From the NCBI GenBank assembly GCA_001804865.1, contig MHBK01000006.1, positions 1 to 64,000 on the forward strand: DNA of 64,000 nt, given 5' to 3'. This document shows positions 19,118 through 54,600 of this stretch, piece by piece. This DNA comes from Lentisphaerae bacterium GWF2_57_35. GTDB taxonomy: Bacteria; Verrucomicrobiota; Kiritimatiellia; CAIQIC01; GWF2-57-35. Each line of letters starts with the position of its first letter. Position 1 is the first letter of the stretch. The position numbers and the translations under genes are program-made. The notes beneath the pieces were generated by a model. The model did no database searches. It was not told the origin of the DNA and was given only the letters and a program-made list of their open reading frames with translations.

Positions 19118-19888
19118 ATGCAAAGCCTTTTCATAACCGCCACGGATACGGGAGTGGGCAAAACCACTTTCAGCGCCGCGCTGCTCGCGCAAGCCCGAGC
19201 CGCCGGCCTCGATGCCGTGCCCATGAAACCGGTGCAGACCGGTTGCGAACGGCGCGGGGACCGGCTGATTGCACCCGACCTGGAATTCTGCCTCTCGGCC
19301 GCCGCCCTCGCCGCGACCGACGAAGAAAAAGAACTCATGTGCCCCTATCGCTTCGAGCCGGCCTGTTCGCCGCACCTCGCGGCGAAGCTTGCAGGACACC
19401 CCATACAGCTCGATGACATCATCGCCGCCCGCCGGAAACTCCAACAACGCCATGAGACGCTCATCGTCGAAGGCGCGGGAGGCGTTCTGGCGCCCATCGA
19501 CGAAGAAAATTTCATGATCGATTTGATGAAAATCCTGAACCTGCCGGTGGTGCTCGTGGCCCGCTCGGGCTTGGGGACCATCAACCATACGCTCCTCACC
19601 TTTCAGGCCTTGAGGCGCGCCCGGATCGAAATACGGGGCATTGTTTTGTCGGATACGCACCGCGACGAACCGGCCCTGATCGTGGAAGACAACCTGCGAA
19701 TCATCCGGCAGCAAGCCGGCGCAACGCCGGTCATCCGCATGCCGTTTTTCCCCGCCGGCTCCCTTGCTCCGCAAGCGAGGGCAGACAGGCAATCGGTGGA
19801 AAATTCCAGCCGGGATTTTCCAATCCTTGGAAAAAATCCGGCTCATTTTTCCAATCATTGGAAAATCCCGGACGTTTTTTTCCAATGA
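19118..19888 (+). CDS. bioD: Dethiobiotin synthetase with repeat-encoded C-terminal tail
   Basis: The protein has 256 aa. The P-loop is ITATDTGVGKTTFSAALL (about 5-22). MKPVQTGC, YRFEPACSPHLAA and VEGAGGVLAPI (about 118-128) are BioD signatures. It closes the ureido ring from DAPA, CO2 and ATP. The enzyme core ends near residue 223. The last about 33 residues (from about SVENSSRDFPILGKN onward) are translated from three copies of the TTTTCCAA-N3-TTGGAAAA repeat, and the stop codon lies in the third copy. The tail is therefore very probably not functional enzyme sequence. Confidence 0.93.
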   Translation: MQSLFITATDTGVGKTTFSAALLAQARAAGLDAVPMKPVQTGCERRGDRLIAPDLEFCLSAAALAATDEEKELMCPYRFEPACSPHLAAKLAGHPIQLDDIIAARRKLQQRHETLIVEGAGGVLAPIDEENFMIDLMKILNLPVVLVARSGLGTINHTLLTFQALRRARIEIRGIVLSDTHRDEPALIVEDNLRIIRQQAGATPVIRMPFFPAGSLAPQARADRQSVENSSRDFPILGKNPAHFSNHWKIPDVFFQ

Positions 19889-19896
19889 TTGGAAAA
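19797..19896. repeat. TTTTCCAA-N3-TTGGAAAA palindromic repeat cluster (family A, three copies)
   Basis: Copies: TTTTCCAATCCTTGGAAAA (19816-19834), TTTTCCAATCATTGGAAAA (19847-19865) and TTTTCCAATGATTGGAAAA (19878-19896). They are preceded by a partial TGGAAAATTCCA (19797-19808). Spacers are 12 nt and carry CCGG-containing words (ATCCGGCTCA, TCCCGGACG). The cluster lies in the bioD 3' end and extends to the bioD-GH5 convergent gap. Two further copies are at 51764-51811. Confidence 0.92.
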
Positions 19897-19901
19897 AGCC
19901 A

Positions 19902-21854
19902 TTACCGCGTCAGCAAAACGCTTTTGAAGGAAGCGGTCGTTAACACCCGATTGTCGTGGCTAAGGACGGCCAGGCCGGCGGAGGCGTTGCGGCCGAGGGC
20001 GTCGGAGGCGCGCACCTGGGTTTTTTCCCATTTCTTGCCGTCGTTGGAATAGGCCACATCGACCATATCGCCGCGGCGCCGCATTCGCAGTTGAACCGGG
20101 AAGAGGGCGCGGCCGAGTTTTTTCTGTTCCATGATTTCGCCCCGTTCGGAACGCCAGCCCAACGCGACGTCCCCATTGGGAAAAACGTTGAGCAAAAGCA
20201 GCGGCGAATCCGGCGCAAGATCGCGTCGAAGCATCAGCCCGGCCTTGGCAAATTCCTGCGTCTCCTCCAGGGAAACCAGGGTGGCGCCCAGATCGAAATC
20301 CCCGGCGACCGGCTTCCAGGTAAAACGAAATTGATCCGATCCCTCCCAAATATCCGCGCCGCCGCCATAGATATCCAGGTCGTTTTCGGAATGAACTTTC
20401 TGTCCGCCGGGCAAAGCGCCGCGGATATCCGAAGCCTGCCAGCCCGTGAGCGGATCCTGGGCGGGCGGCGTTGAGGCAAAGATCGGAAGTTGGGGCAAGT
20501 AGATCGGAGGCGGTTCTGCCTGCGTCAGCGCGGCGCCCAAGGCTTCGTTAATTTCGTACGGCACGGTTCCATACCAACGGAACAGCGTTTCGATATCGTC
20601 CCGGCTGGACTTCTCGATCGAAACCGGCAGCATCGGCTCGCGATTGGCTACCATGCACCAATTGTCTTTCCCCATCCCGCCGCCTTCCTTGATCAGCTTG
20701 TAGCACCACATGGTGGCCGCCCAACCGTTCTCGGCAAAGCGGTCGTAATAATATCGCATCAGCGGCGCGCCTCCGACTTTCTCGAAGACGACGTTGAATT
20801 CGCCGACCAGGAACGGCGTCTGCATGCGTTCCAGAAAGGAGGTGCGGAACGGAAGCGTGCGCGAGACGAACAAGGAATGCGAATCGACGGAAGCTTCTTC
20901 GCCGAACAACCCCGGATAGTAATGCTCCGTGAAGGCGATATTTGTCCAGCCCTGCTCGTCGGGACGCCCGTAAAACTCCAAGCCCTGATGCGTGCCGGGA
21001 AACAGGATGATGTGCCGTTCGTCGACCGTGCGAATGGCTTTGTACATCCGGTCGCACAGGCTGACCAGAGGAGCGAGATGATTGGTCGTTTTATAATCGC
21101 CGAACGGCTCGTTGATCAGGTCATAGGCTGCCACCACGGGCTCCTCGCGGTAATGCTCGGCAATTTTCTGCCAGAGCCAGATCGAGCGCTCCTGCTGCTC
21201 CGGACTGGTCCAGAGCTTGTTTTGGCCCGCACGTCCGGTGGTGTGATCCAGGCTTTGCCCGCCCGGCATCCCATGCATGTCCAGAATCACATACAGATGA
21301 TGCTTCCTCGCCATTTCAATGGTCCAGTCGAGCCACTTGAACGCATCGGGTCGCAGCTCGAGGGGGCCGTCTTCGGCGACCAATAGTCGGTAATTGAACG
21401 GCAGGCGGACCACATTGAAACCAAAAGAACGGATGATGGGGAAATCGCGCTTCGTGATCCAATTGGACCGGAAAAGCTCCATCCAGCCATCCTTCGCCGC
21501 GGGGCCGAAACGTTTTTCAAGAATACCTTCAAAGGCATGTTGATCCCGAATATGGCCCATATCCAGCATCCACATTTCCAGCAGGAGCCAGTTGCCGAGA
21601 TTGCAGCCGCGCAACGTTACCCGCTTCCCCTCCCCATCGACGATTTGCGTGCCTTCCGCTCGCAGAAAATTGGGCGCCGCGACAGGTTCTTCCGTCACGA
21701 CCGGTTCAGGCGCGACGGGTTCAGAAGGCTTGGCCGGCTCCGCCGGAAGCGCCTTCGACGTCTTCTCCGATGAGGGCGTTTTGACGCTGCAAGAGCCAAG
21801 CATAAGTCCTCCCGACAATAGAATGTAAATCGGCAACCATTTTGCTAATCGCAT
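19902..21854 (-). CDS. Secreted lipoprotein glycoside hydrolase family 5 with C-terminal DUF1349-like domain
   Basis: The protein has 650 aa from the ATG at 21854 (GGTGGAG upstream). A lipoprotein signal ends LGSC with Cys22, so it is probably anchored in the outer membrane. A Pro/Glu-rich linker (about 24-60) leads to a GH5 cellulase-type barrel. LRGCNLGNWLLLEMW starts it, the acid Glu is in INEP (about 249) and the nucleophile Glu in VGEFNV (about 352). The C-terminal about 190 residues (from GWQASDIRGALPGG) form a concanavalin-like beta-sandwich similar to DUF1349. The likely substrate is a beta-1,4- or beta-1,3-glucan or mannan; the subfamily is not resolvable by eye. It is convergent with bioD. 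Confidence 0.85.
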   Translation of the reverse strand: MRLAKWLPIYILLSGGLMLGSCSVKTPSSEKTSKALPAEPAKPSEPVAPEPVVTEEPVAAPNFLRAEGTQIVDGEGKRVTLRGCNLGNWLLLEMWMLDMGHIRDQHAFEGILEKRFGPAAKDGWMELFRSNWITKRDFPIIRSFGFNVVRLPFNYRLLVAEDGPLELRPDAFKWLDWTIEMARKHHLYVILDMHGMPGGQSLDHTTGRAGQNKLWTSPEQQERSIWLWQKIAEHYREEPVVAAYDLINEPFGDYKTTNHLAPLVSLCDRMYKAIRTVDERHIILFPGTHQGLEFYGRPDEQGWTNIAFTEHYYPGLFGEEASVDSHSLFVSRTLPFRTSFLERMQTPFLVGEFNVVFEKVGGAPLMRYYYDRFAENGWAATMWCYKLIKEGGGMGKDNWCMVANREPMLPVSIEKSSRDDIETLFRWYGTVPYEINEALGAALTQAEPPPIYLPQLPIFASTPPAQDPLTGWQASDIRGALPGGQKVHSENDLDIYGGGADIWEGSDQFRFTWKPVAGDFDLGATLVSLEETQEFAKAGLMLRRDLAPDSPLLLLNVFPNGDVALGWRSERGEIMEQKKLGRALFPVQLRMRRRGDMVDVAYSNDGKKWEKTQVRASDALGRNASAGLAVLSHDNRVLTTASFKSVLLTR

Positions 21855-22170
21855 GTTATCTCCACCCATGTTCGACCGTGAGCCTGTCGGGAATATCTAC
21901 CCCGGAGCAGATAAGAAATATACGGAAAACCCGTACTGTGGTCCCGGTATCACCCCAGAAGAGTACGCACGAACCTTTTGCCGCGTCAAGCCAGGCATTT
22001 GAATGGGAAATAGGATTGAGAAACCGAATAGATTGTGAGAGGGTCCGATTATGAGAACAGCACTGGCATACCCGCCCGAACTTTTTGCCGAGGATAAGGT
22101 CAAAGTTCATGGATTCTTACAGTTCGTAGCGAACCAATGAGCAGAGCTAAAGCGAAGGAAGCGGGGACTC
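21855..22170. other. Intergenic region with one very small possible ORF
   Basis: About 315 bases between the GH5 start and hepT. At 22051-22140 a plus-strand ATG opens a 29-codon frame (MRTALAYPPELFAEDKVK, then HGFLQFVANQ) ending in TGA. Its wording recalls short DUF2281-like antitoxin fragments, but it is too short to assign. No long repeat was found. The region must hold promoters for both flanking genes. Confidence 0.35.
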
Positions 22171-22584
22171 ATGGCAAACACAAATGAAATCCGTTGGCAA
22201 CAGCGCTTTGAAAATTACGGAAAGGCCCTGACCCAGCTCAATGCAGCCTGTGGAAAGGAAAGCTATTCCGATCTTGAACGAGCCGGTCTTGTCCAAATAT
22301 TTGAGTTCACGTTCGAGCTTGCGTGGAAGACGCTGAAGGACTGGCTCTTCATTGAAGGGTTTGAGTTGAATACCCCGCGAGAGGCGATCCGCAAGGCCTT
22401 TGAGGTAAAACTCCTGGATGAGGCCGACGCGGAGACCTTGCTGGACGGGCTAAAAAAACGAAATTTGCTCAGCCATACTTACGAGGAAGAAACAGCCCGG
22501 GAGGCGGAGGATCTGATAAAGAATCATTACACCCCCTCATTAAACAGGCTTAACGGACGATTAGAGAGCAAGCGCGCTTCATGA
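22171..22584 (+). CDS. hepT: HEPN-domain RNase toxin of a HepT/MntA (type VII) toxin-antitoxin pair
   Basis: The protein has 137 aa. The family is HI0074 / nucleotidyltransferase substrate-binding, now known as HepT. The catalytic HEPN signature and modification site are both present as RNLLSHTY (residues 97-104). This is the R-x4-H-x-Y motif: Arg97 and His102 for RNA cleavage, Tyr104 as the residue that MntA AMPylates in characterised systems. The rest (FEFTFELAWKTLKDWLFIEG) is the conserved HEPN helix pair. The gene overlaps mntA by 4 bp. The toxin role is inferred from family knowledge. Confidence 0.88.
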   Translation: MANTNEIRWQQRFENYGKALTQLNAACGKESYSDLERAGLVQIFEFTFELAWKTLKDWLFIEGFELNTPREAIRKAFEVKLLDEADAETLLDGLKKRNLLSHTYEEETAREAEDLIKNHYTPSLNRLNGRLESKRAS

Positions 22585-22889
22585 ATGACGGGCTGAAGGA
22601 CAGACACAGGAAGGCGATTACCGCCATTTTGACGGCCAATCCGCGAGTGGAGCGAGCCGTGCTGTTCGGATCGAGGGCCATGGGAACGTTCACCCCGACC
22701 TCCGATGTGGACATCGCTTTGTTTGGCGATCGACTCACCCTCGACGACCAAGCGCAACTGGCCGAAGCCATCGGCGATTTGTCGATGCCACAGCGGATTG
22801 ACCTGCTCCTGCATCGCCGCATCACAAACGAAAAACTCCTCGCCCACATCGAGCAATACGGCGTGGAGTGGCCCCTTTCGGCTGGATGA
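22581..22889 (+). CDS. mntA: Minimal nucleotidyltransferase antitoxin MntA
   Basis: The protein has 102 aa. The nucleotidyltransferase motif is GSRAMGTFTPTSDVD (about 33-47), exactly GS-x10-DxD, with the metal-binding Asp pair. The short length, lacking an additional domain, is typical of MNT proteins. In studied pairs MntA neutralises HepT by transferring AMP groups to the Tyr of R-x4-H-x-Y, which is preserved in the neighbouring gene. Translation is coupled through the ATGA overlap at 22581. It is convergent with rex. Confidence 0.88.
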   Translation: MNDGLKDRHRKAITAILTANPRVERAVLFGSRAMGTFTPTSDVDIALFGDRLTLDDQAQLAEAIGDLSMPQRIDLLLHRRITNEKLLAHIEQYGVEWPLSAG

Positions 22890-22919
22890 GCGAACCCGCC
22901 TCTTCGCGAATCGCGATCT

Positions 22920-23573
22920 TTACTTTTTCATCACCCGCATTTTCGTGCTGAGTTCTTCCGTCTTCTGGGCAAACCGGACGTAGTAAAAGAGGTTTTCGAT
23001 TTCCAAGGCAATGTTGATGTTCTGAATGAAACATTGCTCCGTCCCCTTTAACTGGACCGGGGCGAAGTTCAAGACCCCTTTGACGCCGGAGGCCACCAGA
23101 ACTTCCAGAACTTGAGCGGCGGCGTTCTCGGGAATGGTCATAATGGCGACTTGAATGCTTTCCTTTTTAACGAATTCTCCCAACTGCGCCATGTCGAGAA
23201 TCGGCACCGGCAACTGCGGATTGACCACTTCCGGCTTAATGTCAAAGCCCGCCACCACTTTGATGCCCTCGCGGGAAAAACCATGATAGTTGATCAGCGC
23301 CGTCCCGATTTTGCCGCAACCGACGATGACGATCCGCTGAATCTCGTCTTTTCCGAGAATCGTGTTCAGCTTTTCGATCAATTCGTCGATTCGATAGCCT
23401 CCGCGTTTATTCCCTGACAGCCCCACCGTAGCGAAGTCCTTGCGCACCAAGGCCGACGACATCCCTACCGCATCGCCCAAATTGTCGGAAAATACTTTTA
23501 CAAACCCCAGGGACTTAAGCTTGTACAAAATATTTTTGTACCGCGACAGCCGCTGTATCATATCCTTGTTCAT
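22920..23573 (-). CDS. rex: Redox-sensing transcriptional repressor Rex
   Basis: The protein has 217 aa from the ATG at 23573, with AAAGGCGC upstream. The N-terminal winged helix (RLSRYKNILYKLKSLG ... VFSDNLGDAVGMSSALVRKDFATVG) binds DNA. The Rossmann domain starts IVIVGCGKIGTALINY (GxGxxG, about 83-98) and senses the NADH/NAD+ ratio. FAPVQLKGTE and the C-terminal swapped helix also fit. It is divergent from the hydrogenase operon across 207 bp, consistent with control of H2-producing genes and of itself. I could not find a complete TTGTGA-N6-TCACAA site in the gap, only isolated half-sites (TTGTCA at 23700, TGACAA near 23752). Confidence 0.95.
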   Translation of the reverse strand: MNKDMIQRLSRYKNILYKLKSLGFVKVFSDNLGDAVGMSSALVRKDFATVGLSGNKRGGYRIDELIEKLNTILGKDEIQRIVIVGCGKIGTALINYHGFSREGIKVVAGFDIKPEVVNPQLPVPILDMAQLGEFVKKESIQVAIMTIPENAAAQVLEVLVASGVKGVLNFAPVQLKGTEQCFIQNINIALEIENLFYYVRFAQKTEELSTKMRVMKK

Positions 23574-23780
23574 TATTGCGCCTTTCGTAACATTATACTG
23601 CAATCAATATGCTTATTTAATACATATCTTCGTTTTTATAACAAGAATGTATTATTATTTTGTCGTATTTGTTTTTAATAAAAAATATCTTGCTTTCTTT
23701 TGTCAGAATTTATTGCATATATGCTGTCACTTGAAATTCAATTCATTTCCCTGACAACGGAAATAGCGGAGGTTCTAATT

Positions 23781-24278
23781 TTGAATACGACAATGGAAAA
23801 GCCGGCGGCCGACGACAAGAAGCTGACGCCGGAACTGAAAGAGTTCATCCGGCAGTGGAAGCCGAAGCCGGGCAATTTGATCATGGTATTGCATCGGGTG
23901 CAGGAACACTTCGGCTATATTCCCCGGAACGTGGCCTTCGAAGTGGCCGACCTGCTCGACGTACCGCTGGCGCGCGTGTATGGAGTCGTCACCTTCTATC
24001 ATTTGTTCAAACTCAAGAAGCCCGGCCGCTTCAAGATCGCGGTGTGCATGGGTACGGCCTGCTATCTGAAGGGCGGCGAAGACATCATCAAGGAATTGGA
24101 AAACATCCTGGGCGTCGGGCTGAATGCGGTGACGCCGGACGGCGAATTTTCCGTGGAAGCGGTCCGGTGCCTTGGTTGTTGCGGCCTGGCGCCGGTGCTG
24201 TCCGTTAATGGCGAAGTGCACGGCAACGTGAAGAAGGATCAGCTCGCCGAGATTGTCGCGAAGTATAAGGGGACGTAG
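23781..24278 (+). CDS. hydC: NuoE-like [2Fe-2S] subunit of NAD-dependent [FeFe]-hydrogenase
   Basis: The protein has 165 aa from a TTG start at 23781. GGAGG lies 8 bases upstream, whereas the internal ATG at 23793 has no site. The thioredoxin-like [2Fe-2S] fold is shown by CMGTAC (C-x4-C) and CLGCCG (C-x3-C), about 34 residues apart. The N-terminal helical bundle (LIMVLHRVQEHFGYIP) and VYGVVTFYHLF are standard for NuoE/HydC. It feeds electrons within the HydABC complex that couples NADH and reduced ferredoxin to H2 formation. The long 164-bp gap to the next gene contains two hairpins. Confidence 0.9.
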   Translation: MNTTMEKPAADDKKLTPELKEFIRQWKPKPGNLIMVLHRVQEHFGYIPRNVAFEVADLLDVPLARVYGVVTFYHLFKLKKPGRFKIAVCMGTACYLKGGEDIIKELENILGVGLNAVTPDGEFSVEAVRCLGCCGLAPVLSVNGEVHGNVKKDQLAEIVAKYKGT

Positions 24279-24356
24279 CGGATTCGCTGATTTTGACCGG
24301 AAAAAAATATCTCCTCGCAGGAAGAGGATTTGTTGAATGAATCTGCTGAAAAATCC

Positions 24357-24410
24357 GCCGGTTCGCAGAACCGGCCTACACAAAACGGCAGGCCGACTCT
24401 GTGAGTCGGC
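24357..24410. repeat. Two CTACA-flanked hairpins (family G) inside the hydrogenase operon
   Basis: GCCGGTTCGCAGAACCGGC (24357-24375, followed by CTACA) and GCCGACTCTGTGAGTCGGC (24392-24410) are short stems of similar design but different sequence. A third hairpin of this design, GCCGCCGCC / GGCGGCGGC followed by TACA, is at 32755-32776. Lying between hydC and hydD, they could modulate the relative expression of the two cistrons. Confidence 0.7.
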
Positions 24411-24442
24411 GTCGGCAGGCAAAATAGATTAGAGGTGACATC

Positions 24443-24832
24443 ATGGCAAAACTGACGTTGGAAGAATTGAAAAAGCTGCGGGAAGAGAAGAGGAAAGAGC
24501 TAAACAACCGCAGGACGGAAGGCAAGGATGTACAGGTGATCGTCGGCATGGGCACGTGCGGCATTGCCGCGGGCGCCAAGGACACCTTCGACGCCTTCCT
24601 GAAGGAAATCGATCAAAGCGGGCTGACGAACGTCACGATCCGTCAGACGGGCTGCATGGGCCTGTGCCATTCCGAGCCCACTGTGGAAGTCATCGTCCCG
24701 GATATGCCGTCCGTCGTGTACGGCAACGTGAACCCGGACGTGGCGCAACGCATCGTCCGCAAACACATCGTCGGGAAGATCATGATCAACGACCACATCT
24801 TCGACAAGCCCGCGGCCGACATCATTAAATAG
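24443..24832 (+). CDS. hydD: Small [2Fe-2S] thioredoxin-like ferredoxin subunit (HydD type)
   Basis: The protein has 129 aa. After a charged coiled-coil-like start (TLEELKKLREEKRKELNNRR), a [2Fe-2S] fold carries one Cys in VGMGTCGIAAGA and two in QTGCMGLCHSEP, with EVIVPDMPSVVYGNV completing the fold. Only three Cys are visible, so a fourth ligand of the usual C-x4-C / C-x3-C set is missing here: the first pair reads GTCGIAAG with a single Cys. It closely resembles the small extra subunit found in some HydABCD complexes. The ATG at 24443 follows AGAGGTGA. Confidence 0.82.
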   Translation: MAKLTLEELKKLREEKRKELNNRRTEGKDVQVIVGMGTCGIAAGAKDTFDAFLKEIDQSGLTNVTIRQTGCMGLCHSEPTVEVIVPDMPSVVYGNVNPDVAQRIVRKHIVGKIMINDHIFDKPAADIIK

Positions 24833-24845
24833 AGAGAACACCATC

Positions 24846-26633
24846 ATGGCCTTTAAAAACTATATCCTGGTCTGCGGCGGCGCCGGCTGCGAAGCCAACC
24901 GCGGCGTGGACCTTTACAAGACGCTTCAGAAAGAACTCCAGGAACAGGGCGTGGAAAACGAAGCCCAGGTCGTCAAGACCGGCTGCTTCGGGTTCTGCGA
25001 AAAGGGCCCCATCGTAAAGATGCTGCCCGACGAAACATTCTACGTCTCGGTCAAGCCTGAGGACGCCAAGGAAATCGTCGCCGAGCACGTCGTCAAGGGC
25101 CGCCCGGTCGCCCGCCTCCTCTACGACAAGACCCAGAGCCGAACCAACGCGAAACTGGAAGACATCGATTTTTACCAGAAGCAGGTCCGCATCGTTCTGC
25201 GCAACTGCGGCGTGATCGATCCGGACTCGATCGACGAGTATATCGCCCGCGACGGCTACGACGCGTTGGCCAAGGTCCTCACCGAGATGACGCAGGATCA
25301 GGTCATTGAGGAATTGAAGAAATCCGGCCTGCGCGGACGCGGCGGCGCCGGCTTCCTGACCTGGAAGAAATGGATGTTCACCAAGCAGGTTGCCTCCAAC
25401 GAGAAATATGTAATTTGCAATGCCGACGAAGGCGATCCCGGCGCGTACATGGACCGCAGCACCATCGAAGGCGATCCTCATTCCATTCTGGAGGCCATGA
25501 CCATCGCAGGCCGTACGGTGGGCGCGAGCCAGGGCGTCATTTACATCCGCGCCGAATATCCGCTGGCCATCATCCGGCTGGAAAACGCGATCAAGCAGGC
25601 CAAAGACTACGGGCTGCTGGGCGAAAACATCCTCGGCACAGGCTTCAACTTCAACATCGAAATCCGATTGGGCGCCGGCGCCTTCGTCTGCGGCGAAGAG
25701 ACCGCGCTGATCGCCTCGACGGAAGGCCGCCGCGGCATGCCGATCCCCCGCCCGCCCTTCCCGGCCGTCCGGGGCCTCTGGCAGAAACCCACGGTGATCA
25801 ATAACGTGGAAACCTACGCCAACATCCCGATGATCGTTCTGCGGGGCGGCGACTGGTTTGCGAAGATCGGCACGGAAACCTCCAAGGGCACCAAGGTCTT
25901 CGCCCTGACCGGCAAGATCAACAACTCCGGCCTGATCGAAGTCCCGATGGGCACCACCCTGCGGGAAATCATCTACGACATCGGCGGCGGCATCCGGGGC
26001 GGCAAGGCCTTCAAGGCCGTGCAGACCGGCGGTCCGTCGGGCGGCGTGATCACCAGCGAATACCTCGACACGCCGATCGATTACGAGCATTTGCAGAAGC
26101 TCGGTTCGATCATGGGCTCCGGCGGCATGATCGTCATGGACGAGGACGATTGCATGGTCGACGTCGCGCGCTTCTACCAGGAATTCTGCGTGGACGAATC
26201 GTGCGGCAAGTGCGCCCCCTGCCGAATCGGCACCCGGACCATTTACAACCTGCTCACCGGCATCTGCCAGGGCCGGGGCACGATGGACGACCTGCAAAAG
26301 ATCAACGAAATCGGCCGCGCGATGCAGAAGGCCGCGCTGTGCGGACTGGGACAAACCGCGCCGAACCCGGTGCTCTCGACCATGAAGTACTACGAAAAAG
26401 AGTACCTGGCGCACATCAAGGAAAAGAAGTGCCCGTCCGGCAAGTGCCGCGATTTGGTCACCTATTACATCCTGCCGAACAAATGCATCGGCTGCACGGT
26501 TTGCGCGCGGCGCTGCCCGGTCGGCGCCATCACCGGCGAACGGCAGAAGATCCACACGATCAACCAGGAGACCTGCATCAAGTGCGGCGAGTGCCTGAAG
26601 GCGTGCAAGTTCAGCGCGGTGTTCCGCCGATAG
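24846..26633 (+). CDS. hydB: NADH-binding flavoprotein subunit of [FeFe]-hydrogenase (NuoF-like)
   Basis: The protein has 595 aa. Domains in order: N-terminal thioredoxin-like [2Fe-2S] (CGGAGC and CFGFC, about 11-55), NuoF core with FMN/NADH loops GLRGRGGAGF (about 161-170) and NADEGDPGAYMDR (about 194-206), and CGEETALIASTEGRRGMPIPRPPFP (about 283-307). These are followed by the SLBB fold, the [4Fe-4S] site CGKCAPCRIGT (about 455-465) with CGLGQ, and a C-terminal 2[4Fe-4S] ferredoxin (CIGCTVCARRCP; CIKCGECLKAC). This exact layout is that of HydB in electron-bifurcating hydrogenases. It follows hydD by 13 bp. Confidence 0.95.
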   Translation: MAFKNYILVCGGAGCEANRGVDLYKTLQKELQEQGVENEAQVVKTGCFGFCEKGPIVKMLPDETFYVSVKPEDAKEIVAEHVVKGRPVARLLYDKTQSRTNAKLEDIDFYQKQVRIVLRNCGVIDPDSIDEYIARDGYDALAKVLTEMTQDQVIEELKKSGLRGRGGAGFLTWKKWMFTKQVASNEKYVICNADEGDPGAYMDRSTIEGDPHSILEAMTIAGRTVGASQGVIYIRAEYPLAIIRLENAIKQAKDYGLLGENILGTGFNFNIEIRLGAGAFVCGEETALIASTEGRRGMPIPRPPFPAVRGLWQKPTVINNVETYANIPMIVLRGGDWFAKIGTETSKGTKVFALTGKINNSGLIEVPMGTTLREIIYDIGGGIRGGKAFKAVQTGGPSGGVITSEYLDTPIDYEHLQKLGSIMGSGGMIVMDEDDCMVDVARFYQEFCVDESCGKCAPCRIGTRTIYNLLTGICQGRGTMDDLQKINEIGRAMQKAALCGLGQTAPNPVLSTMKYYEKEYLAHIKEKKCPSGKCRDLVTYYILPNKCIGCTVCARRCPVGAITGERQKIHTINQETCIKCGECLKACKFSAVFRR

Positions 26634-26658
26634 AAGCGACAACTTTAAGGATAAAATC

Positions 26659-28410: not shown

Positions 28411-28420
28411 ACAGCGAGAA

Positions 28421-45876: not shown

Positions 45877-46503
45877 ATGACATGGGGCGAATACAGCATT
45901 TTGGCGTTCAGCTCGCTGTTCGTGATCGTTGACTCGATCGGGACGGTGCCGGCGTTTTTGGCCATGACGCAACATAACACGCCGGAGGAGCGGAGCCGCA
46001 TGGCCCGACTGGCGTGCCTGCTGGCGACCGGGGTTTTGGTTTTCTTTGCCCTGACCGGGATGTGGATATTCCGAATCATGGGCATCACGCTGCCCGCCTT
46101 CCAAATGGCCGGAAGCTTAGTGCTGTTTATGATTGCCTACGACATGCTGCGCGCGCGGCGCTCGGCCGTCAAGGAAACCGCCGCCGAAACGGAAGAGGGC
46201 ATGAGTAAGGAAGATATCGCCATCACCCCGCTTGGCATACCCATGCTGGCCGGCCCCGGCGCGATCACCACGACCATCCTGCTGCAGAGCAAGGCGCAGA
46301 ACCTCATGCAGATCCTGACGCTCTATGCGTGCATTCTTGCCGTAGGCCTGATCAGCTATGGCATTTTGCACGTGGCGGCCAGAGGCGCCCGCTTGATGAC
46401 CCCTACGGCCATGAAAATCACCACCCGGCTGATGGGACTTTTGTTAGCCTCGGTCGCCGCTCAATTCCTGCTGAACGCGCTCAAAGAGATCAAGAGTATG
46501 TAA
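45877..46503 (+). CDS. marC: MarC-family integral membrane protein
   Basis: The protein has 208 aa with six predicted helices. MarC signatures: LFVIVDSIGTVPAFLAMTQ, MARLACLLATGVLVFFALTG, FQMAGSLVLFMIAYDMLRA, and the SKEDIAITPLGIPMLAGPGAITTTILL segment. The molecular function of the family is not established. It follows the glycosyltransferase by 52 bp and ends at a bidirectional-looking terminator. Confidence 0.9.
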   Translation: MTWGEYSILAFSSLFVIVDSIGTVPAFLAMTQHNTPEERSRMARLACLLATGVLVFFALTGMWIFRIMGITLPAFQMAGSLVLFMIAYDMLRARRSAVKETAAETEEGMSKEDIAITPLGIPMLAGPGAITTTILLQSKAQNLMQILTLYACILAVGLISYGILHVAARGARLMTPTAMKITTRLMGLLLASVAAQFLLNALKEIKSM

Positions 46504-46506
46504 GGA

Positions 46507-46540
46507 GGGTGCGGCTCCTGCAAGGAGACCGCACCCTTTC
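46507..46540. terminator. Terminator between convergent marC and GH94 genes
   Basis: GGGTGCGG (46507-46514) and CCGCACCC (46529-46536) form an 8-bp stem enclosing a second small stem (CTCC/GGAG), followed by TTTC on the plus strand. It lies between the stops of two convergent genes. Confidence 0.75.
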
Positions 46541-46547
46541 ACGGATT

Positions 46548-49529
46548 TTATACGAAACGAACGGTGACCTGCGCTTCCGCTCCCTTGCCGGTTTGCGGCA
46601 ACTCGGCGCCGGTCGCTTGGCCGTTCAACATGACGTACGGGGCCTTGGCGACGCTTCGGACAAAGCGTTTCGGCTTTTCGATGCGAATGCAATACTGCCC
46701 GGCCGGCACCTGGAGGCGCACGGTGGATTTTTTCCAATCCGCAGGCAGAATCGGGTCCACGGTCACTTTGCCTTCCTTGAAAAGGACGCCCAGCATGCTC
46801 AAGTAGGTCATCCACATCCAAGGCGCCGTTCCGCTCAGCAAGGGGCCAATGTGTTCCTCGGTCGCGGGGTTGGTATACTGCGTGCAGAAACGCGGATTGC
46901 CGGCCAGGCGATACGGATCTTCAAAGGTCTTGAACGGAGCGGTCACTTGAAGAACTTTCCAGCCCATGTCCGCCAGTTTCGACGCAAGCGTCGAATCGCT
47001 GACCGTCCGCGCGGCCTGCATGAGCGCGCTGGCCGCCATCATGGTCGCGTGCTTGAACACCGCGCCGTTTTCCCGGTCGCCGTAGAGATAATCGCCGGAA
47101 CCGCAATGGGGCATAATCAAATTGTACTTCGTCGGCGAGGCCAATCGCAGCCCATAGGGAGTCAGCAAAATCTTCTCGATACGGTCGAACATGATGCGAA
47201 TCTGTTCCTCGGTAGCCACGCCGCTGAGCACGGCCCACGAGAAGCTGTTCAGGAAATAGGAGCCCGGCAGATTCGGGTCCGCCGACAGATTATCCCCCTG
47301 CCCGCCCAGATACGACGTGCTGGCCGCATTCGGACGATTCAGAAACGCGCGGGCAAAGAAATCGCCCTTCCAGGCTTTTTGCAAGCGCTCGTGCAGGATC
47401 TTACCGAATTCGGTCCACTCGGTTTCCCGATCCGTACGGCCTTTCATGTGAGCAAACCGCACCATGTACGCCCGGGCGATTTCCAGCAGGAAACCGTTCA
47501 TGACGCTTTCGGAGAGGTCGGAAATAAACGCATCGCCATCCTTGATCTTGCCTTCGGCGATTTGTTGCTTGTAGAGTTTTTCCTTCTCGGGGCCATGAAT
47601 GCCTTCGCCGTCCAGATTGAGCGTATCGTTCCAATCGGCATGATCGATCAACGGCATGCCGTTCTTTCCGATCGATACGCGTCCGCTGTAGTGCAGGATG
47701 GCTTGGAGCGTCTCGAAGAGAGGCCTCGTCTGGCCGTCTTCACCGGCCACCGGCCACTCGCGGTCGAGAACGGAGAAATCTCCCGTCAAATCGATATAGC
47801 GCCCCACGGCCTGAAAGAGCCATAGCGCATCGTCGGAATAGCGGCCCGCTTCAAAGCCGGCCCAATAGAATTGATGGTTGGCATATCCGAAGCGGTGAAC
47901 ATGCCCGGCCCACAGGCCAATCAAATCCCGAATGTGATCCTGACGACCCGCCGCCACTTCGAACGGCAGGGCCGCAAAAAGGTCCTGAATTTCCCGGAAT
48001 CCGATTTTGCGAAAGCCCTTTTGCGTCAGGGCAAACGAACGGCTGGCATAGGTCTGGTAACGGATTTGGAACGGCAGATGCACGTTGACCAAGCGGTTGA
48101 CATTCTGGTCGGGCGTCTCCACCTGGACGGCGCTGCAATAGCTGTCCTGGAAGCTTTGAACTTTCTGAAGGGCGTTGCGGCCCCACTCGCGATTCAACGC
48201 CAGGGAAGTCATCCCGCTCATGCGCTCGGCCAGATAGTCCTGCGTAATGGCCTGCCCTTCGTGACGCGAAACGGAGCCGTTAAACGAATGGCACTCCACC
48301 ATTTCGCCCGGTTCGATGACGCACGGCAATGCCAAGGCAAAAAAGGCCGGACCTTTCTTGGCATAAACGTTATCGAGGCAAAGCACGTTCTGCGGACGTT
48401 CCAGCGTGCCGTTGCCGACAAACTTCCGATAGTCGAGGCAGAAAGCTTTGGGACCCACGGCTGTCCCATCAGGACGATAAACAAGGCTGAGATTGAACGG
48501 GTAATCTTCCTGGCACCAGCCCTGCGAATAGCGGGGACAGACCACGAGAGGCGCGGAACGATCCGACGTCTGGAAAACCCGCGGCTCGATGGTTACGCAC
48601 GTATAAATCACGTCGACCACCAAGGCATCCGGGAAGGGACAACCGAACATCCCCGTGGCTACAAGCTGAAGATCGCGCTTCTTGTCGCCGGTATTGGAGA
48701 GCGTGATAATCTGAGCTTCGACCGCCAGCGGCAAGCCCGGCTCGGCGGGAACGATGAAAATGGTTCGCTCGATCTTCAAGCCATCGGGCAACTGATAACT
48801 GATCACCGTATGATTGGCCGAATGACGGGTGGTTACTTTTGCCTTGGGATCCGGCATGGCGGAATAGAAAATCTGCCGACCGTCTTCGATCAGGTAAAAT
48901 TGCCTATTGGCCGGGAAGCCGTTTTCTTCCGGCACAACGTCCCAGCGGGTGGCCAGGATTTGTTTGTCTGCATGCGAACGACTGCTTCCGCGGCCCCATT
49001 CGTCGACCAAGGCCTTCGGCGTGGTCATCAACGGACTGGAGAAACCAGCGCGATCGCCGATCAACAGATTGGCTCGAAAATGGGTTCCCGGGGCGGGCGT
49101 ACGAGGATCGAAGGCATGGTCCCCGTTATCAAGAAGCGTCCCTTCCCAATGCTGGGCTTGACGCATTGTGCGGGCCAGGAGCGTCTGAATCTTTTCGGGG
49201 ATGGAGACTTCTTCAACGACCGAGCCTAATCGCTTATGAAAGCGAACCTGTTTTTGATCGCCTTGGATCAGGCCATCGGCTTCATCGCCGAGCGTTTCCC
49301 GAAAAAATCGATACAACGTGGGATCGTTCAGCAAAGCCCGGACGACCGGACGGCGAGGCTCAGGACCCGAACAGCCCAACACCTGTCGGCCATCGGCCGC
49401 CAGGAAGAGCGCGTCCACCCCTTGAGGGGATGAACAAAGTTGAGCAAATCTTTCGACACAAACGGCAGAGGTATCCGCCGAACCCGAACGTAAAGTTTTT
49501 GAATTAAATTGAATGGTTTTCATGGGCAT
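46548..49529 (-). CDS. GH94-type glycoside phosphorylase (cellobiose phosphorylase superfamily)
   Basis: The protein is about 990 aa; the ATG at 49529, 49523 or 49553 could be the start, and none has a ribosome-binding site. N-terminal beta-sandwich (NRQFYLIEDGRQIFYS, EVQIITLSNTGDKKRDLQL), linker, (alpha/alpha)6 barrel with HADWNDTLNLDGEG carrying the candidate general-acid Asp, and a C-terminal two-layer jelly roll (PYGLRLASP, APWMWMTYLSMLGVLFKEG). Such enzymes phosphorolyse beta-glucosides (cellobiose, chitobiose, laminaribiose, beta-1,2-glucans) to a sugar phosphate; the linkage cannot be read from sequence. Its upstream region carries a LacI-like operator. Confidence 0.82.
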   Translation of the reverse strand: MPMKTIQFNSKTLRSGSADTSAVCVERFAQLCSSPQGVDALFLAADGRQVLGCSGPEPRRPVVRALLNDPTLYRFFRETLGDEADGLIQGDQKQVRFHKRLGSVVEEVSIPEKIQTLLARTMRQAQHWEGTLLDNGDHAFDPRTPAPGTHFRANLLIGDRAGFSSPLMTTPKALVDEWGRGSSRSHADKQILATRWDVVPEENGFPANRQFYLIEDGRQIFYSAMPDPKAKVTTRHSANHTVISYQLPDGLKIERTIFIVPAEPGLPLAVEAQIITLSNTGDKKRDLQLVATGMFGCPFPDALVVDVIYTCVTIEPRVFQTSDRSAPLVVCPRYSQGWCQEDYPFNLSLVYRPDGTAVGPKAFCLDYRKFVGNGTLERPQNVLCLDNVYAKKGPAFFALALPCVIEPGEMVECHSFNGSVSRHEGQAITQDYLAERMSGMTSLALNREWGRNALQKVQSFQDSYCSAVQVETPDQNVNRLVNVHLPFQIRYQTYASRSFALTQKGFRKIGFREIQDLFAALPFEVAAGRQDHIRDLIGLWAGHVHRFGYANHQFYWAGFEAGRYSDDALWLFQAVGRYIDLTGDFSVLDREWPVAGEDGQTRPLFETLQAILHYSGRVSIGKNGMPLIDHADWNDTLNLDGEGIHGPEKEKLYKQQIAEGKIKDGDAFISDLSESVMNGFLLEIARAYMVRFAHMKGRTDRETEWTEFGKILHERLQKAWKGDFFARAFLNRPNAASTSYLGGQGDNLSADPNLPGSYFLNSFSWAVLSGVATEEQIRIMFDRIEKILLTPYGLRLASPTKYNLIMPHCGSGDYLYGDRENGAVFKHATMMAASALMQAARTVSDSTLASKLADMGWKVLQVTAPFKTFEDPYRLAGNPRFCTQYTNPATEEHIGPLLSGTAPWMWMTYLSMLGVLFKEGKVTVDPILPADWKKSTVRLQVPAGQYCIRIEKPKRFVRSVAKAPYVMLNGQATGAELPQTGKGAEAQVTVRFV

Positions 49530-49538
49530 ATTAATTAA

Positions 49539-49552
49539 TGGTATCGGTATCA
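49539..49552 (-). promoter_or_regulatory. LacI/GntR-family-like operator at the GH94 start
   Basis: TGGTATCGGTATCA has a central CG and near-symmetric arms (TGATACC / GGTATCA in the best fit with two mismatches), the form typical of LacI-family sites. It overlaps the 5' end of the GH94 gene, consistent with repression. No such regulator is in the window. Confidence 0.4.
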
Positions 49553-49773
49553 TTTGTCAAGGGCTTCTCTGTAAAAAGACGCATAACTTGTCTTATGTTG
49601 TTTCCTTTCAATCATTTATATGCCCATTAACTCATGATGTATAGGGGAAACGACAAGCAACCAATGACCACGCTCTCAAATTTCAGCTATTTTTATCAAA
49701 AATCTATTCGCAACCTATCCAAACAGCCACTTGGAACTTGAGCTGGATTAGGATACAGGTCATGCTTTTACCC

Positions 49774-50322
49774 ATGAAAGCCCTCATGATCTTTCTATTG
49801 TGTTCGAACATGTTGGTTTGGTCTGTTCTGGCTCAAGGCAAGAGTCCCGATTGGAGTTCGAAAAGCAACGTCGTCACAACGGTCGCAACGGATAAGATCC
49901 CCTCTTCGTGGTTTTACAAAGCCAAGGGATATGAAAAGGCTTTGGAACTGCAAAAAGAAACCGGCGCGGACATTTTTATCGTCTTCACACGTGATGTACC
50001 TACCGATCAGAAAGGGCTTTGCGAATGGTTCCAGCAGAAGAGCCTTGAAAACAATAAGGTCAAAAAGTATTTGAAGAATTATCTCCGAGTGGAAATCCCC
50101 CTTCCCGCCAATCCCGACTGCCAAAAATTGGCCGAACAATTCCAAGTGGGAAAATGTCCTGCCGTCTTCATTGTACAGCCTAAGGGTTGGAAACAGTATT
50201 GCAAGGTCTTCTCTTGGGACAACAAGAAGCCCGAGCTGATCGAGCCGGAAGCTCTAATCGATTCATTCCGAACGAGAAGCAGCTCTTGGTATTCCATGCA
50301 GGACAGCGAAAGCAAACAGTGA
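49774..50322 (+). CDS. Secreted thioredoxin-fold protein without a CxxC motif
   Basis: The protein has 182 aa from the ATG at 49774 (ATG at 49762 also in frame). A signal peptide (ALMIFLLCSNMLVWSVLAQG) is followed by a thioredoxin-like fold: DIFIVFTRDVPTDQKGLCEWFQQKSL, then YLRVEIPLPANPDC and FQVGKCPAVFIVQPKGW (the cis-Pro strand). The position of the CxxC instead reads QKGLC, with only a single Cys, so classical disulfide exchange is doubtful. Function unknown. It is followed by a 460-bp gap before the surface-protein genes. Confidence 0.7.
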   Translation: MKALMIFLLCSNMLVWSVLAQGKSPDWSSKSNVVTTVATDKIPSSWFYKAKGYEKALELQKETGADIFIVFTRDVPTDQKGLCEWFQQKSLENNKVKKYLKNYLRVEIPLPANPDCQKLAEQFQVGKCPAVFIVQPKGWKQYCKVFSWDNKKPELIEPEALIDSFRTRSSSWYSMQDSESKQ

Positions 50323-50784
50323 AGGAGACCGCTTGTTGATTCCAACAGGCGTACATCCAAAATCCAGTGATTAGATTGGCGCCGTTTGTCAAAAAACGTG
50401 TTGAGCCTCTTTGCCAATCCATCCCCTCCGTTGTACACGCTAAGAACGTGTTCCAATCATTTACTCATTCATCTCGCCAAGCGAGATAATGGCCACCCGT
50501 TGACATTATCGCGTTATGGATTAGATCTAGTATGTAAAGCATCAAAAGGCGTTCAGATATCGGCATCAAGGAGGTGTTCTTCAGCGGTTCTTTTTGAAAG
50601 CTCAAAAGATAAAGAATTACAGGCAGTTCCGACAGGGAATGAATCGCTAGCGCGGTATTTCTTTATGGAAAAGTCAAAATCATAGGAAGAAACAACTATT
50701 TCGGAACGACGCTACAATTGGCTTCCTTTTTTTTCTGAGCAATGGCGCCAGGAAAAAGATCTCTCGAAGTCAGGAGCTCGAACC
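50323..50784. other. Intergenic region with no confident gene
   Basis: 462 bases. A 99-codon frame from a TTG at 50386 to 50685 has no ribosome-binding site and no recognisable family. A TTGACA at 50500 with TAGATC 16 bases on could be a promoter for the surface-protein operon, giving a leader of about 255 nt. A small hairpin (CGCTTGTTG / CAACAGGCG) lies at about 50332-50352. Nothing else stands out. Confidence 0.45.
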
Positions 50785-51669
50785 ATGACGCACTTTGTGA
50801 GAATAGAGATGCTAAGGGTTAGTATCGGCTGGTTGGCGCTGTATGCGTTATTGGCCGGAGCCCAAGCCGGCGAGCTCTCTTATCCGCTGTACATTGGGAA
50901 CGCTCAGCCGATCCAAGACGAGTTTGGGCGGAATCTGCTGGGCGCCTGCACGACGGCCATAGATCAATGTGATCGGGTGGAAGTGCTCATCAGCACTGAC
51001 GGTCAAATTTATCCACCGGCATCCGACGGGACGCCGGATCCTCGCAATATACTGCTGGAAGACGGCGTAACGGCGATCGGCAATCATACCTCTGCCGAAT
51101 TAACCAACTCCGGACTGTTTGGCTTTTCGATTAAGACGAACAAGCCGCTGCCAGGCACAAAGCTTTTTGTGCGGGCATTTAACGCAAAAGATCGCGGAAC
51201 GGCATCATTTTATGGCGATTCAGCCATCATCAACCTCGGCTTCAATGCCGTGTATATAATCTCCATTACCAACATGATCGCATTGGATTCAAACGATGGC
51301 GACGGCGAAGGCATGAATAACTCTTGGGAGAAGAGTTTGGGAACCGATCCAAATAAAGCAGATACCGATGGCGACGGGCTGAGCGACGATCAGGAACGGC
51401 GAGCGGGCACCGATCCGCTAGATGCCCAATCCTCCTTGGTTATGGCTGAAATTCGCCTTGGGTCGAATAATCGGCCTCTCATCGCTTGGGCTTCAGTTGA
51501 AGGCAAACGGTATCAGTTGGAATATACCGGCACAGATCTACGACTTAATCCCACATACGTCAACGTCAGTCTCGTCATCACGGCGGCCGGCGCAGTCTCT
51601 GAGGTGTCGGTTTCAGAGGAAGTTCTGAATCAAACGGGACAGTATCGGGTCCGATTAGTGGAAAACTAA
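50785..51669 (+). CDS. Secreted protein with thrombospondin type-3-like calcium repeats
   Basis: The protein has 294 aa. AGGAG precedes the ATG; the signal peptide ends AQAGE (about 30). The N-terminal about 135 residues form a beta-rich domain of unknown type (PLYIGNAQPIQDEFGRNL, LFVRAFNAKD). Two TSP3-like Asp-rich calcium loops follow: DSNDGDGEGMNNSWEKSLGT and DPNKADTDGDGLSDDQERRA (about 168-207), then a short beta-domain. Repeats of this kind bind Ca2+ and often mark cell-surface or cellulosome-like proteins. It is 21 bp upstream of the giant gene, likely in one operon. Confidence 0.85.
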   Translation: MTHFVRIEMLRVSIGWLALYALLAGAQAGELSYPLYIGNAQPIQDEFGRNLLGACTTAIDQCDRVEVLISTDGQIYPPASDGTPDPRNILLEDGVTAIGNHTSAELTNSGLFGFSIKTNKPLPGTKLFVRAFNAKDRGTASFYGDSAIINLGFNAVYIISITNMIALDSNDGDGEGMNNSWEKSLGTDPNKADTDGDGLSDDQERRAGTDPLDAQSSLVMAEIRLGSNNRPLIAWASVEGKRYQLEYTGTDLRLNPTYVNVSLVITAAGAVSEVSVSEEVLNQTGQYRVRLVEN

Positions 51670-51690
51670 GCAAGCCGATAGAGGAATCTT

Positions 51691-54600
51691 ATGATAAACA
51701 AAACTGGGGTTTGCTTGGGCGGGACTCTCTTTCATCAAACCTTGAAACATGTATGCGCCAAGATTCCAAGGTTTGGAAAAAGCGTTATCGGATTTTCCAA
51801 TGCTTGGAAAAAGATAGCCGGGCTGGCTGGGGCGTTCACGGTGGCGATGGGAATATCGGCTCAGGCCGAACCTACATGGTCCGGCAACGGAGCGGACGGC
51901 AACTGGGATACGGCCGCCAACTGGATTGACAATGTGGCGCCAGGACCCGAATCGAATCTCGTCTTCTACAGCGGCATTGGCTCAGGGACCAATATCAACC
52001 TCAATGGAAATCGAGAGGTCTATGGGCTTCGATTCGAGAATAATGCCGATACGTCATTGAACTTCTACAATAATACCTTGACCATCAATAATGGAGGTCT
52101 TGGCATGAACGTCGATTGTCGAGGCAATCATGTCATCGCATCGGATGTCGTATTGGGCGCCGATCAAATCTGGAGCAATGCCGTAGCAAACAGTCCTTCA
52201 GCAACATTGACCGTCAGCGGCAACATTTCCGGCTCGGGGAGTCTAACGTTACAAGGATGCGGTTACAAATATTGGGGATTTGATTTTTCCGGAAACAACA
52301 CGTTTACGAATGCGGTGACCCTCGAAAGAGGAACGATTTTAACACTTAAACATCCTAATGCCTTGGGGTCAACTTCAGCGGGAATTAGGATCAACGATAT
52401 AAGTTCACTGCGTTTTCAGGGCACTAATACTTTTCAGCCTGAAACGATTCGATTGAACGGAACCGGAAGTTGGTATGAGGGAGCGCTGCTCAGCTTGTCT
52501 GGAAGCAATACCCTAACGGGCCCAATCGTATTGGAACGTTCTTCGATCATCAATTTAGCCAACAACGCTACACTGGTCTTGGATTCGTCGACGCCCATCA
52601 CAGGGACAGACTTGAACCTGACTGTGGCCGGATGGGGCAGCGGGGGGAATCTAATTGTTAACAGTGTTATCGATACAGGATCAGGCTATGTCAGATTGGG
52701 AGAAAATGCCCCCGATGTAGCTCTTTTGGCAGTCAATACGTATTCAGGAGGAACCATTGTATACGATGGGATATTAAGAATTAATAGCGACAGGAGCTTG
52801 GGCGCGATTCCATCCGCGTTTTCCGCCAATAACATATCCATGACTTATGGCACGCTGATTCATGGCGATGTTCCCAATATTGCTTTGCACACAAATCGCG
52901 GGATTACTCTCAATGACGGGTGCCAAAGCAAAATTGAAGTATACTCCAATCGTACGCTCACCTGTAACAGTTGCATCAGCGGCAGCGGACACTTGAGGAA
53001 ACAAGGACTTGGGACGTTGTTGCTGGCGACGAACAACACCTATAGCGGCAATACAGAGATTCTTGGCGGAACGATGATCATGAACGGTTCTAATGCAACG
53101 GCTTCAATAACCATGACATGGAACACAGGCGGACGCCTTTGCGGAATCGGTTCTATAGGGCCGCTCAATCTTTACTATCAAAACGAAGTCGATCCTGGCG
53201 CCGATCCCAATTCCGTGGGAAATCTTAAGGTTAGTTCTCTCACGGTTCATGATGGGACAACTCAGCACGTTCACATCGCGAACGCGACGGCGGGCACAGG
53301 AACAGGATGGGACGTGATTACCGTGGGCGGAGGCAGTGGAACGACGACTTATCAACAATTCTTGGGTTATCGAATTATAGTCAAACTCGATTCGATGGGC
53401 GTAACGCCAACGGGCTGGAATCCCACCAATAGCTATAATTGGGTTATCGTGGATGCCGGAGTCCTTAACGGCTTCAATACCAATCTATTTGTCCTCGATA
53501 CGTCGGCTTGGACCGGCGATTTGAAGAAAGGCGCCTTTTCCCTCTGTGAGAACGGCGGCAATCTGGTTATAAAATTTTCTCCTTATGTCTCCTCAATAAT
53601 TTTCGATAACTTTACCTCGTCTAGCGGCAGCCTGAATGGAGGAAGCGAAGGTCGAGGCTGGGCGGACAATTGGAGTTTGGGCGGCGACCCGTTTGCCGAT
53701 TATGTCAGCAGTTCGTTCAATGCCGGGTATTCGAGCTATATCGACCCGACGGCCAATAAAGTCGTGCTTTACGGAGATGTCAATGGCCGATGGGTTTCCG
53801 CCACCCGAACTTTCGACAGAACCTTCACCACCGGACGGGTCTATTTTTCCTACATGATGAATTACGCCTATAATGGCAACAACAAATACGCCGGCATCAA
53901 GTTGCTGGCGGACAATACCGAGGTTGCCTTTATCGGCAAGTGCTCCGGAGCCGACAAGGCTTTGGGCATCTCCGATACTTCGGACGACCGGATTAGTTCG
54001 TATGCGCTCCAGAATGGATCCGGCAACGACTATATTGTCGCCGGCGTCTACGATTTCTCGACCAGGCAATTAAACGCCACAGCTTATAAGATAAGCTCCG
54101 ACAGCGCTTGCGAAATGATCGCAGAAGAACCGCAGGGATACTGGCAAGTGACGACTACCCAGACCGTGGGACAAATTACAAAACTTACCGGCATTCGATT
54201 GATCGCCGGCTCTCTAAGCGGATCTGAGCAAGTGGGCTATGTGTATTATGACGAGGTCCGAGTGGGAACCAACTGGTACGAAGTAACCCGTAAAGATGGA
54301 GAATTTTATTATGACGAAGAAGCTGTAGGCCCGATTCCCGAGTTAATTTATATTGGAACCGATTACAGCGCCGGGCTATATGGCACAAGCCTTACTGAAG
54401 CAGAGGCTCTAAATTCATCGGATAAATTGGATATTGCCGTGCGATGGAGCAGTCCTTTCGGCGTTTTTCTGACGAACAACCCCAATACCTTTAACATAGG
54501 GTCCAGGGCTGGGCGGGTTTGTCCGAACTGGGATCCATTGAGAATACAAGGTTCGGTCACAAACTCATTGGGCATGGACACGAACTTTGCCTCCTTCTAC

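Follow-up and report, generated by a model that had tools for sequence, protein, structure and literature searches.

We have found that a 19-bp palindrome, TTTTCCAA-N3-TTGGAAAA, which occurs in a 64,000-nucleotide stretch of the genome of Lentisphaerae bacterium GWF2_57_35 (contig MHBK01000006.1, positions 1 to 64,000; hereafter the window), belongs to a large family whose copies are set in short, helically phased tandem arrays. The arrays appear to be maintained by selection and look more like docking sites than like jumping DNA. Judging from sequence comparisons, we put at about an even chance the reading that they are clusters of binding sites for a putative dimeric protein, probably one that organises the chromosome.

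The genome (5,052,682 bases in 74 contigs) contains 176 exact copies of the palindrome and none of the reversed pattern that served as control. The full list of copies was compiled from three centre-specific pattern searches (76, 59 and 41 copies), and every one of the 176 has G or C as its centre base. An earlier note, made from the letters of the window, had proposed a repeat family that is translated into proteins and had allowed that fewer than a handful of copies genome-wide would speak against it; the family is indeed large. The exact copies cluster into 92 arrays at separate loci, none with more than 4 copies, and adjacent exact copies lie 31 bp apart in 81 cases, 32 bp in one and 62 bp in two. 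When partners with up to three mismatches at 21, 22 or 30-32 bp are counted, 84 of the 92 arrays have at least two copies. A scan of every offset from 19 to 139 bp for such partners, in which a pair of exact copies is counted once from each member, recovers the same steps (31 bp, 195; 62 bp, 60; 93 bp, 4; 32 bp, 3; six scattered others), so the 31-bp rule is not a product of the restricted offsets. The 16 arm positions are nearly invariant in this genome, a figure that is biased because the arrays were found via an exact copy. The spacers between copies are 12 bp long, with A/T at either end and G+C in between, and of 116 spacers 115 are distinct; nine pairs of spacers from different arrays match at 10 letters, and 11 or 12 of the 12 letters are common to different arrays only in three local duplications. 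Tandem transposition is not supported in this genome, since those duplications are the only route by which arrays come to have spacers in common; at L088, L105 and L123 local segmental duplications copied whole arrays together with their flanks. No conserved flank stood out beside the arrays of this genome, and the 14 positions on each side of its palindromes carry no consensus of the GTAG type, only A/T edges and a mildly G+C-rich spacer.

Conserved dyad half-sites, free spacers and steps of whole helix turns are what a cooperative operator array would be expected to have, and all are found here. Strict arms, spacers of fixed length but free sequence, whole-turn spacing and the tendency to two or more copies lead us to suppose that dimers bind cooperatively. 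The 8-bp arms would be the recognition half-sites of a dimeric DNA-binding protein, and copies set 31-32 and 62-63 bp apart, or in genus g5 also at 22, 30 and 52 bp, would put neighbouring dimers on approximately one face of the helix. Dimers so placed would bind cooperatively, from which it would follow that most arrays have at least two copies. As a general rule, we infer, sites would arise and vanish in place, through substitution and the gain or loss of units, at any place where the DNA tolerates them, most often in intergenic DNA but at times within coding sequence, and then in whichever frame remains open. The protein would act on the chromosome itself, by bridging, as a domain boundary or as a segregation anchor, rather than on one regulon; we favour such a role because the arrays have little 5' or 3' preference, unrelated neighbours and overlaps with coding sequence, and are spread along this chromosome more evenly than chance would have it. 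More tentatively, and somewhat short of an even chance, the arrays may belong to a class-specific system in which an oligomerising putative protein occupies helically phased arrays at roughly even intervals and selection for its sites overwrites protein sequence (TrpF, RlmN, AroB, the BioD tail, signal peptides) in any open frame. We know of no described counterpart of such a system.

The window contains four exact copies and one with two mismatches, where a shuffled window is expected to contain 0.07 copies at up to two mismatches. Three of them form an array at the 3' end of bioD; palindromes and spacers are given without a strand.

19118..19888, forward strand: bioD (TIGR00347, E 2.6e-46), its C-terminal tail encoded by the array
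19796..19803: half-site remnant GTGGAAAA, a decayed half copy read from the sequence, one 31-bp step 5' of copy 1 in exact register
19816..19834: palindrome copy 1, exact, peptide FPILGK
19835..19846: 12-bp spacer between copies 1 and 2
19847..19865: palindrome copy 2, exact, +31 bp, peptide FSNHWK
19866..19877: 12-bp spacer between copies 2 and 3
19878..19896: palindrome copy 3, exact, +31 bp, FFQ and then the bioD stop

The stop codon TGA (19886-19888) is itself the centre of the third palindrome. It had been claimed that three copies make up the last 33 or so residues of BioD and its stop; the copies and the stop are as described, but the full copies span about 24 codons, not 33, and the proposed start of the repeat at 19797 matches the decayed half copy, not a full one. 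A tail encoded by an array is also found in same-order relatives, with a different order of frames: the copies have 1, 0 and 2 mismatches in G006, 1, 1 and 0 in G001, and 0 and 0 in the two-copy array of G004, and in G012 the array has decayed to 2, 2 and 3 mismatches. At that last locus (L229) the array-derived tail peptide is largely retained despite the decay of the palindromes. In genus g2, whose sample was not selected for arrays, all four species covered by the search have an array in the BioD tail, and in G013 an array of two copies lies some 60 bp beyond the bioD stop. Among the 29 bioD loci read, 23 have no exact copy in or behind bioD (G009, G002 and G007 among them), with this genome, G001, G004, G006, G012 and G013 set apart from that count. 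The earlier note had allowed that the same tail on BioD of distant taxa would speak against its proposal; an array-encoded tail does recur, with exact copies in three genomes of the same order and in decayed form in a fourth.

It is very improbable, in our view, that the arrays act as RNA, their tandem hairpins serving termination, mRNA stability or translation control. The bioD array does fold well (-40.2 kcal/mol, z -6.6), as runs of palindromes tend to, but its centres point either way among its copies, and arrays occur on both sides of genes and within them. No Rfam family matches the window at gathering score. Among degenerate copies in 229 distinct arrays of all genomes, arm changes are one-sided in 229 cases, two-sided and complementary in 5, and two-sided and non-complementary in 6 (233, 5 and 6 if duplicate loci are counted too). 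For this genome alone the corresponding counts are 55, 0 and 0. Because complementary double changes are so rare, it is the sequence of the arms that is kept and not their pairing, and we reject selection for an RNA hairpin.

The second array of the window lies in the signal-peptide n-region of a giant protein.

51691..62121, forward strand: protein of 3,476 residues, with the autotransporter-type repeat TIGR02601 over the cut-off, PATR just under it and fn3 just over it
51762..51780: palindrome copy with 2 mismatches, n-region, peptide IPRFGK
51793..51811: palindrome copy, exact, +31 bp, n-region, peptide FSNAWK

Both copies are in frame, as had been reported. Downstream of the copies, in-frame ATG, GTG or TTG codons are first met within the hydrophobic core, so the palindromes must be translated, as the earlier note had argued, provided that this signal peptide is used. 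Arrays likewise occupy the signal-peptide n-region of several large secreted proteins, in this genome (L096, L109, L118, L146 and L170) and in the relatives G007 (L192, L195) and G002 (L218, L225). We note that the lysines encoded by such arrays would suit the charge requirement of a signal peptide.

We examined the gene context of every array, taking up to 3.5 kb on each side (88 stretches, 609 kb) and calling genes with a simple coding-potential caller. Arrays are intergenic in 71 of 92 cases, though 83% of the sequence is coding. The intergenic arrays lie between tandem genes in 38 cases (54%), divergent genes in 26 (37%) and convergent genes in 7 (10%), where the lengths of the intergenic regions predict 61%, 24% and 15%. 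Counts of neighbouring gene ends (5':3') are 104:72 in this genome, 27:29 in G007 and 22:20 in G002, and so in these three genomes the sites are not mainly upstream as they would be in the regulon of a transcription factor. The neighbours, whose names were read from the sequence by eye and not by family searches, are an unrelated mix that includes pheS, purM, dapA, ruvB, aroE, bioA and secreted proteins.

These observations bear on what we regard as the main rival explanation, given that some arrays stay with their gene from family to family: that the arrays are operators of a global transcription regulator, or a roadblock, acting locally on each neighbour at 5' ends, at 3' ends or within genes. 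Across families, some arrays keep to particular genes: they precede pheS, aroE, an amidohydrolase gene and a thioesterase gene and sit at the end of bioD. Helical phasing typifies operators, and this genome does have its mild excess of 5' ends and divergent regions. Nevertheless, neither G007 nor G002 has a 5' preference, convergent sites occur, the neighbours mix unrelated housekeeping genes with genes for secreted proteins, and by-eye inspection, the only kind made, recognised no regulator gene recurring beside the arrays. We therefore consider a regulator of this kind unlikely, though by no means negligible.

Depending on the frame, the palindrome encodes F-S-N-x-W-K, F-Q-x-L-E or F-P-x-x-G-K, and since a step of 31 bp is no whole number of codons, the frames rotate along an array (FS, FQ, FP). 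Translated arrays in each of the three frames occur both at gene ends and in mid-gene, and the proposal that the repeat tolerates translation is thus upheld. The genes of this genome that contain an array or a single copy were read from the sequence as trpF, an ABC permease gene, a sugar nucleotidyltransferase gene, rlmN, menG, aroB and a gene for an ArsR-type regulator; solved relatives support the identities of TrpF, the nucleotidyltransferase, RlmN, ArsR and AroB. (Genes of G002 that were flagged as containing arrays, such as those at L216 and L221, resemble antisense open reading frames of the gene caller and were excluded.) RlmN and AroB align with their solved relatives through the palindromes with no added residues, whereas TrpF has a net gain of about 13 residues at its array and the nucleotidyltransferase one of about 6, both counted by eye. 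From these alignments, some in-gene sites overlie native codons and others involve a net gain. The alignments of the ArsR-type regulator (L145) to its relatives stop where the array begins, and the single copies in MenG and AroB, which have no partner, may in part follow native protein motifs.

The residues gained in TrpF and the nucleotidyltransferase are what one would expect of a small palindromic element, mobile or selfish, that enters genes and tolerates being translated, of the type of repetitive extragenic palindromes (REPs), miniature inverted-repeat transposable elements or Rickettsia palindromic elements; the earlier note had suggested a mobile or self-propagating palindrome. RlmN and AroB, in which no block has been inserted, do not fit, nor do the spacers of this genome, which are common only to the three local duplications. 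We judge such an element improbable, and comparison between genomes bears on it from both sides.

The relative G007 is of the same order as this genome and of a different family (median identity of reciprocal best matches, 66%), and 7 of its 31 arrays are at the same place as arrays here: before pheS, aroE, the amidohydrolase gene and the thioesterase gene, and inside trpF, the permease gene and the nucleotidyltransferase gene. Six of these places were found by rule, and pheS, whose called gene start differs, was added by hand; the other 24 arrays have no match among the array-neighbourhood stretches compared. In-gene arrays seem over-represented at the common places (3 of 7), as a mobile element would predict if such copies were merely hard to delete, and their copy number or order of frames differs between the two genomes. 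Where G007 genes that flank an array have a reciprocal partner, 10 of 13 partners also touch an array, compared with 3 of 10 for non-flanking genes, a comparison that applies to array neighbourhoods and is not a genome-wide rate. G002 and G007 are congeners (median identity 82%). We examined 22 of the 26 known arrays of G002 and paired and aligned nine by hand (the rule flagged 10 pairs, eight of them the hand-paired ones and the other two not aligned). Across these nine pairs, identity is 429 of 446 positions (96%) in the arms, 146 of 234 (62%) in the spacers, 54 of 83 in the centres and 1261 of 1875 in the flanks; at the divergence of the spacers, about six changes per copy would be expected. 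Conserved arms at old places, with spacers and flanks that have diverged, speak against a mobile element. In view of the conserved places and the bioD sample, some arrays are therefore of long standing and tied to their gene, and the whole set is subject to turnover. We also note that in orthologous copies (L215/L189, L226/L184 and others) the central triplets often differ wholly, TGT versus ACA; to go by the sequences, the centres behave as if they had been inverted or converted.

Among 56 genomes, this one included, 23 have at least one exact copy, 15 have at least five, and the maximum is 531. Of 387 sampled genomes of the phylum, 17 have the exact tandem pattern, all of them in one class. 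That class is probably Kiritimatiellia, to judge by a scan of named genomes: among the matches listed, most titles read Kiritimatiellae, Lentisphaerae, Verrucomicrobia or uncultured bacterium, and one record is titled Bacteroidales and one genome Spartobacteria. Within family f4, genus g5 has 330-356 copies and genera g4, g6 and g10 have none. Such patchiness, and the large differences in copy number among congeners, would suit a mobile element, and viral contigs gave no stretch with the exact tandem pattern (11-13-bp spacer), which argues against viral carriage. The transposase family Y1_Tnp (PF01797) is found in 48 of the 56 genomes, among them genomes that have copies and genomes that lack them, and on inspection of the counts, in which all Y1 transposases are pooled with REP-associated tyrosine transposases (RAYTs), has no visible relation to copy number; G003, for instance, has 14 matches and no copies, and G011 has 2 matches and 330 copies. 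These counts lend no support to a link to RAYTs.

In genus g5, G005 and the record JAFXQI (RGIG6649) are treated as one genome on account of their identical array coordinates at one locus. The arrays there form oriented mosaics whose copies are 22, 30, 31 and 52 bp apart, close to whole turns of the helix, and mosaic arrays of this type are seen at L008-L079 (JAFXQI loci) and L019-L074 (CACXEY loci). From locus to locus their 12-bp spacers resemble one another (on average 7.7 of 12 letters are identical, where shuffles give 3.9), and 3-bp linkers and the mosaic order recur at different loci. The word GATTGTGCA (TGCACAATC), chosen as the top of many words, stands beside g5-type arrays in 4 of 17 cases (control 0 of 377) and 3 of 7 (control 0 of 147). 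The polarity of the arrays shows no relation to gene direction in the 14 usable arrays at g5-type loci. A recent expansion by copying is possible in g5, where, with spacers alike from locus to locus, the palindrome may be mobile. For this genome, we do not uphold the claim of a mobile or self-propagating element: the spacers are not common beyond the local duplications, the arms are conserved, RlmN and AroB are without insertion, and 7 of the 31 places in G007 are common. Selfish mobility explains the patchiness but fails to account for arms conserved at old places or for sites that lack an inserted block, and the interpretation of the earlier note as a whole is partly supported.

The arrays of this genome tend to keep their distance from one another. 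With four local-duplicate partners removed, a single gap is below 10 kb where 13 are expected (sd 3), none of 3000 trials being as low, and the median gap is 36 kb compared with 20-23 kb for random placement; with all 92 arrays, 10 gaps are below 15 kb where 19.6 are expected (sd 3.5; P 0.0045). When the test is conditioned on the span of the arrays in each contig, P is 0.057 in this genome, 0.006 in G001, 0.027 in G005, 0.52 in G002 and 0.61 in G004; for G001, G004 and G005 it covers the listed part of the places, and contigs with fewer than 3 arrays contribute nothing to it.

Several observations weigh against binding sites of a chromosome-organising protein. The even spacing was sought after the fact, with lengths assumed for the 24 array-free contigs, and in its conditioned form it is borderline here and absent in G002 and G004. 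The pairs compared between G002 and G007 were chosen because both arrays could be detected, which biases the conservation of the arms upward. The spacers of this genome are somewhat more alike than shuffled ones (mean identity 4.9 of 12, against 3.9), the mild excess of 5' ends and divergent regions and the net gains in TrpF and the nucleotidyltransferase have to be set beside them, and the family is patchy within the class, with up to an 8-fold range of copies in genus g2 (65 to 531), which also suits an element that expanded and was then lost. Lastly, no binding protein was found for the arrays. We considered a 76-residue protein encoded 72 bp from a three-copy array (L173:1588-1818) and rejected it as a candidate binder: it has no Pfam match at E 1 and no relative at the other array loci compared. 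It could be a small DNA-binding protein.

The least probable of the explanations that we weighed, and a very improbable one, is a signal for DNA uptake or biased recombination that accumulates in place by molecular drive, as has been proposed for the uptake sequences of Haemophilus and Neisseria. An origin in place within coding sequence in the two genes checked (RlmN and AroB), uniform arms and genome-specific centres would agree with it. The density of copies is low, at 0.035 per kb here and 0.16 in G004, the densest relative, and helically phased arrays are a feature that uptake signals would not need.

Systems of sites that organise the chromosome, best known from model organisms, include matS/MatP, the sites bound by Noc and by SlmA, and parS/ParB. 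Their sites are likewise dispersed along the chromosome as palindromes of about 15-20 bp; they differ in sequence from the present family, which is arranged in phased arrays and whose binder is putative.

Published palindromic elements offer further likenesses of form. REPs and the mosaic elements (BIMEs) that they build are also short interspersed palindromes, sometimes clustered and some within genes, and include GTAG- and CGTC-tagged types (PMC3733652); the present palindromes have no such conserved tag beside them, no visible relation to Y1 transposases and, between them, spacers of fixed length and free sequence. Rickettsia palindromic elements, whose units are about 150 bp long and encode a conserved peptide, are similarly translated in frame within otherwise normal proteins (PMC10969869). 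The present units are 19 bp long, are read in three frames and can occupy native residues, and no long inserted unit with a conserved peptide is seen, RlmN and AroB having no insertion and TrpF and the nucleotidyltransferase a net gain. PARCELs (palindromic amphipathic repeat coding elements), whose unit is a 25-residue motif, also consist of tandem palindromic DNA that is translated, including in membrane-targeted proteins (PMC2996958), but the 31-bp period seen here rotates the frame and gives no 25-residue tandem in a single frame. Nor do 12-bp spacers at 92 separate loci with at most 4 copies resemble a CRISPR array, a comparison made with no search for cas genes. Among the papers listed in searches of the literature on palindromes, interspersed repeats and transcription factor sites of Kiritimatiellia, on palindromic repeats of Verrucomicrobia, on translated palindromes and on the arm words, no description of the family was seen.

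If the arrays do organise the chromosome, they would provide a system with 92 mapped sites in one genome and a measured spacing rule, with natural experiments in the form of sister genera with and without arrays. They are also a clear case of a constraint at the level of DNA dictating amino-acid sequence, one palindrome being read in three frames at matching places across families, and a useful system for asking how far a DNA-binding site may overwrite protein sequence. Two further observations concern neighbouring genes: within the window, a protein with a bacterial TSP3 repeat is encoded at 50785-51669, 5' of the giant autotransporter-repeat protein, and at L182 of G007 a gene that by eye is integrase-like lies about 1.8 kb from an array.

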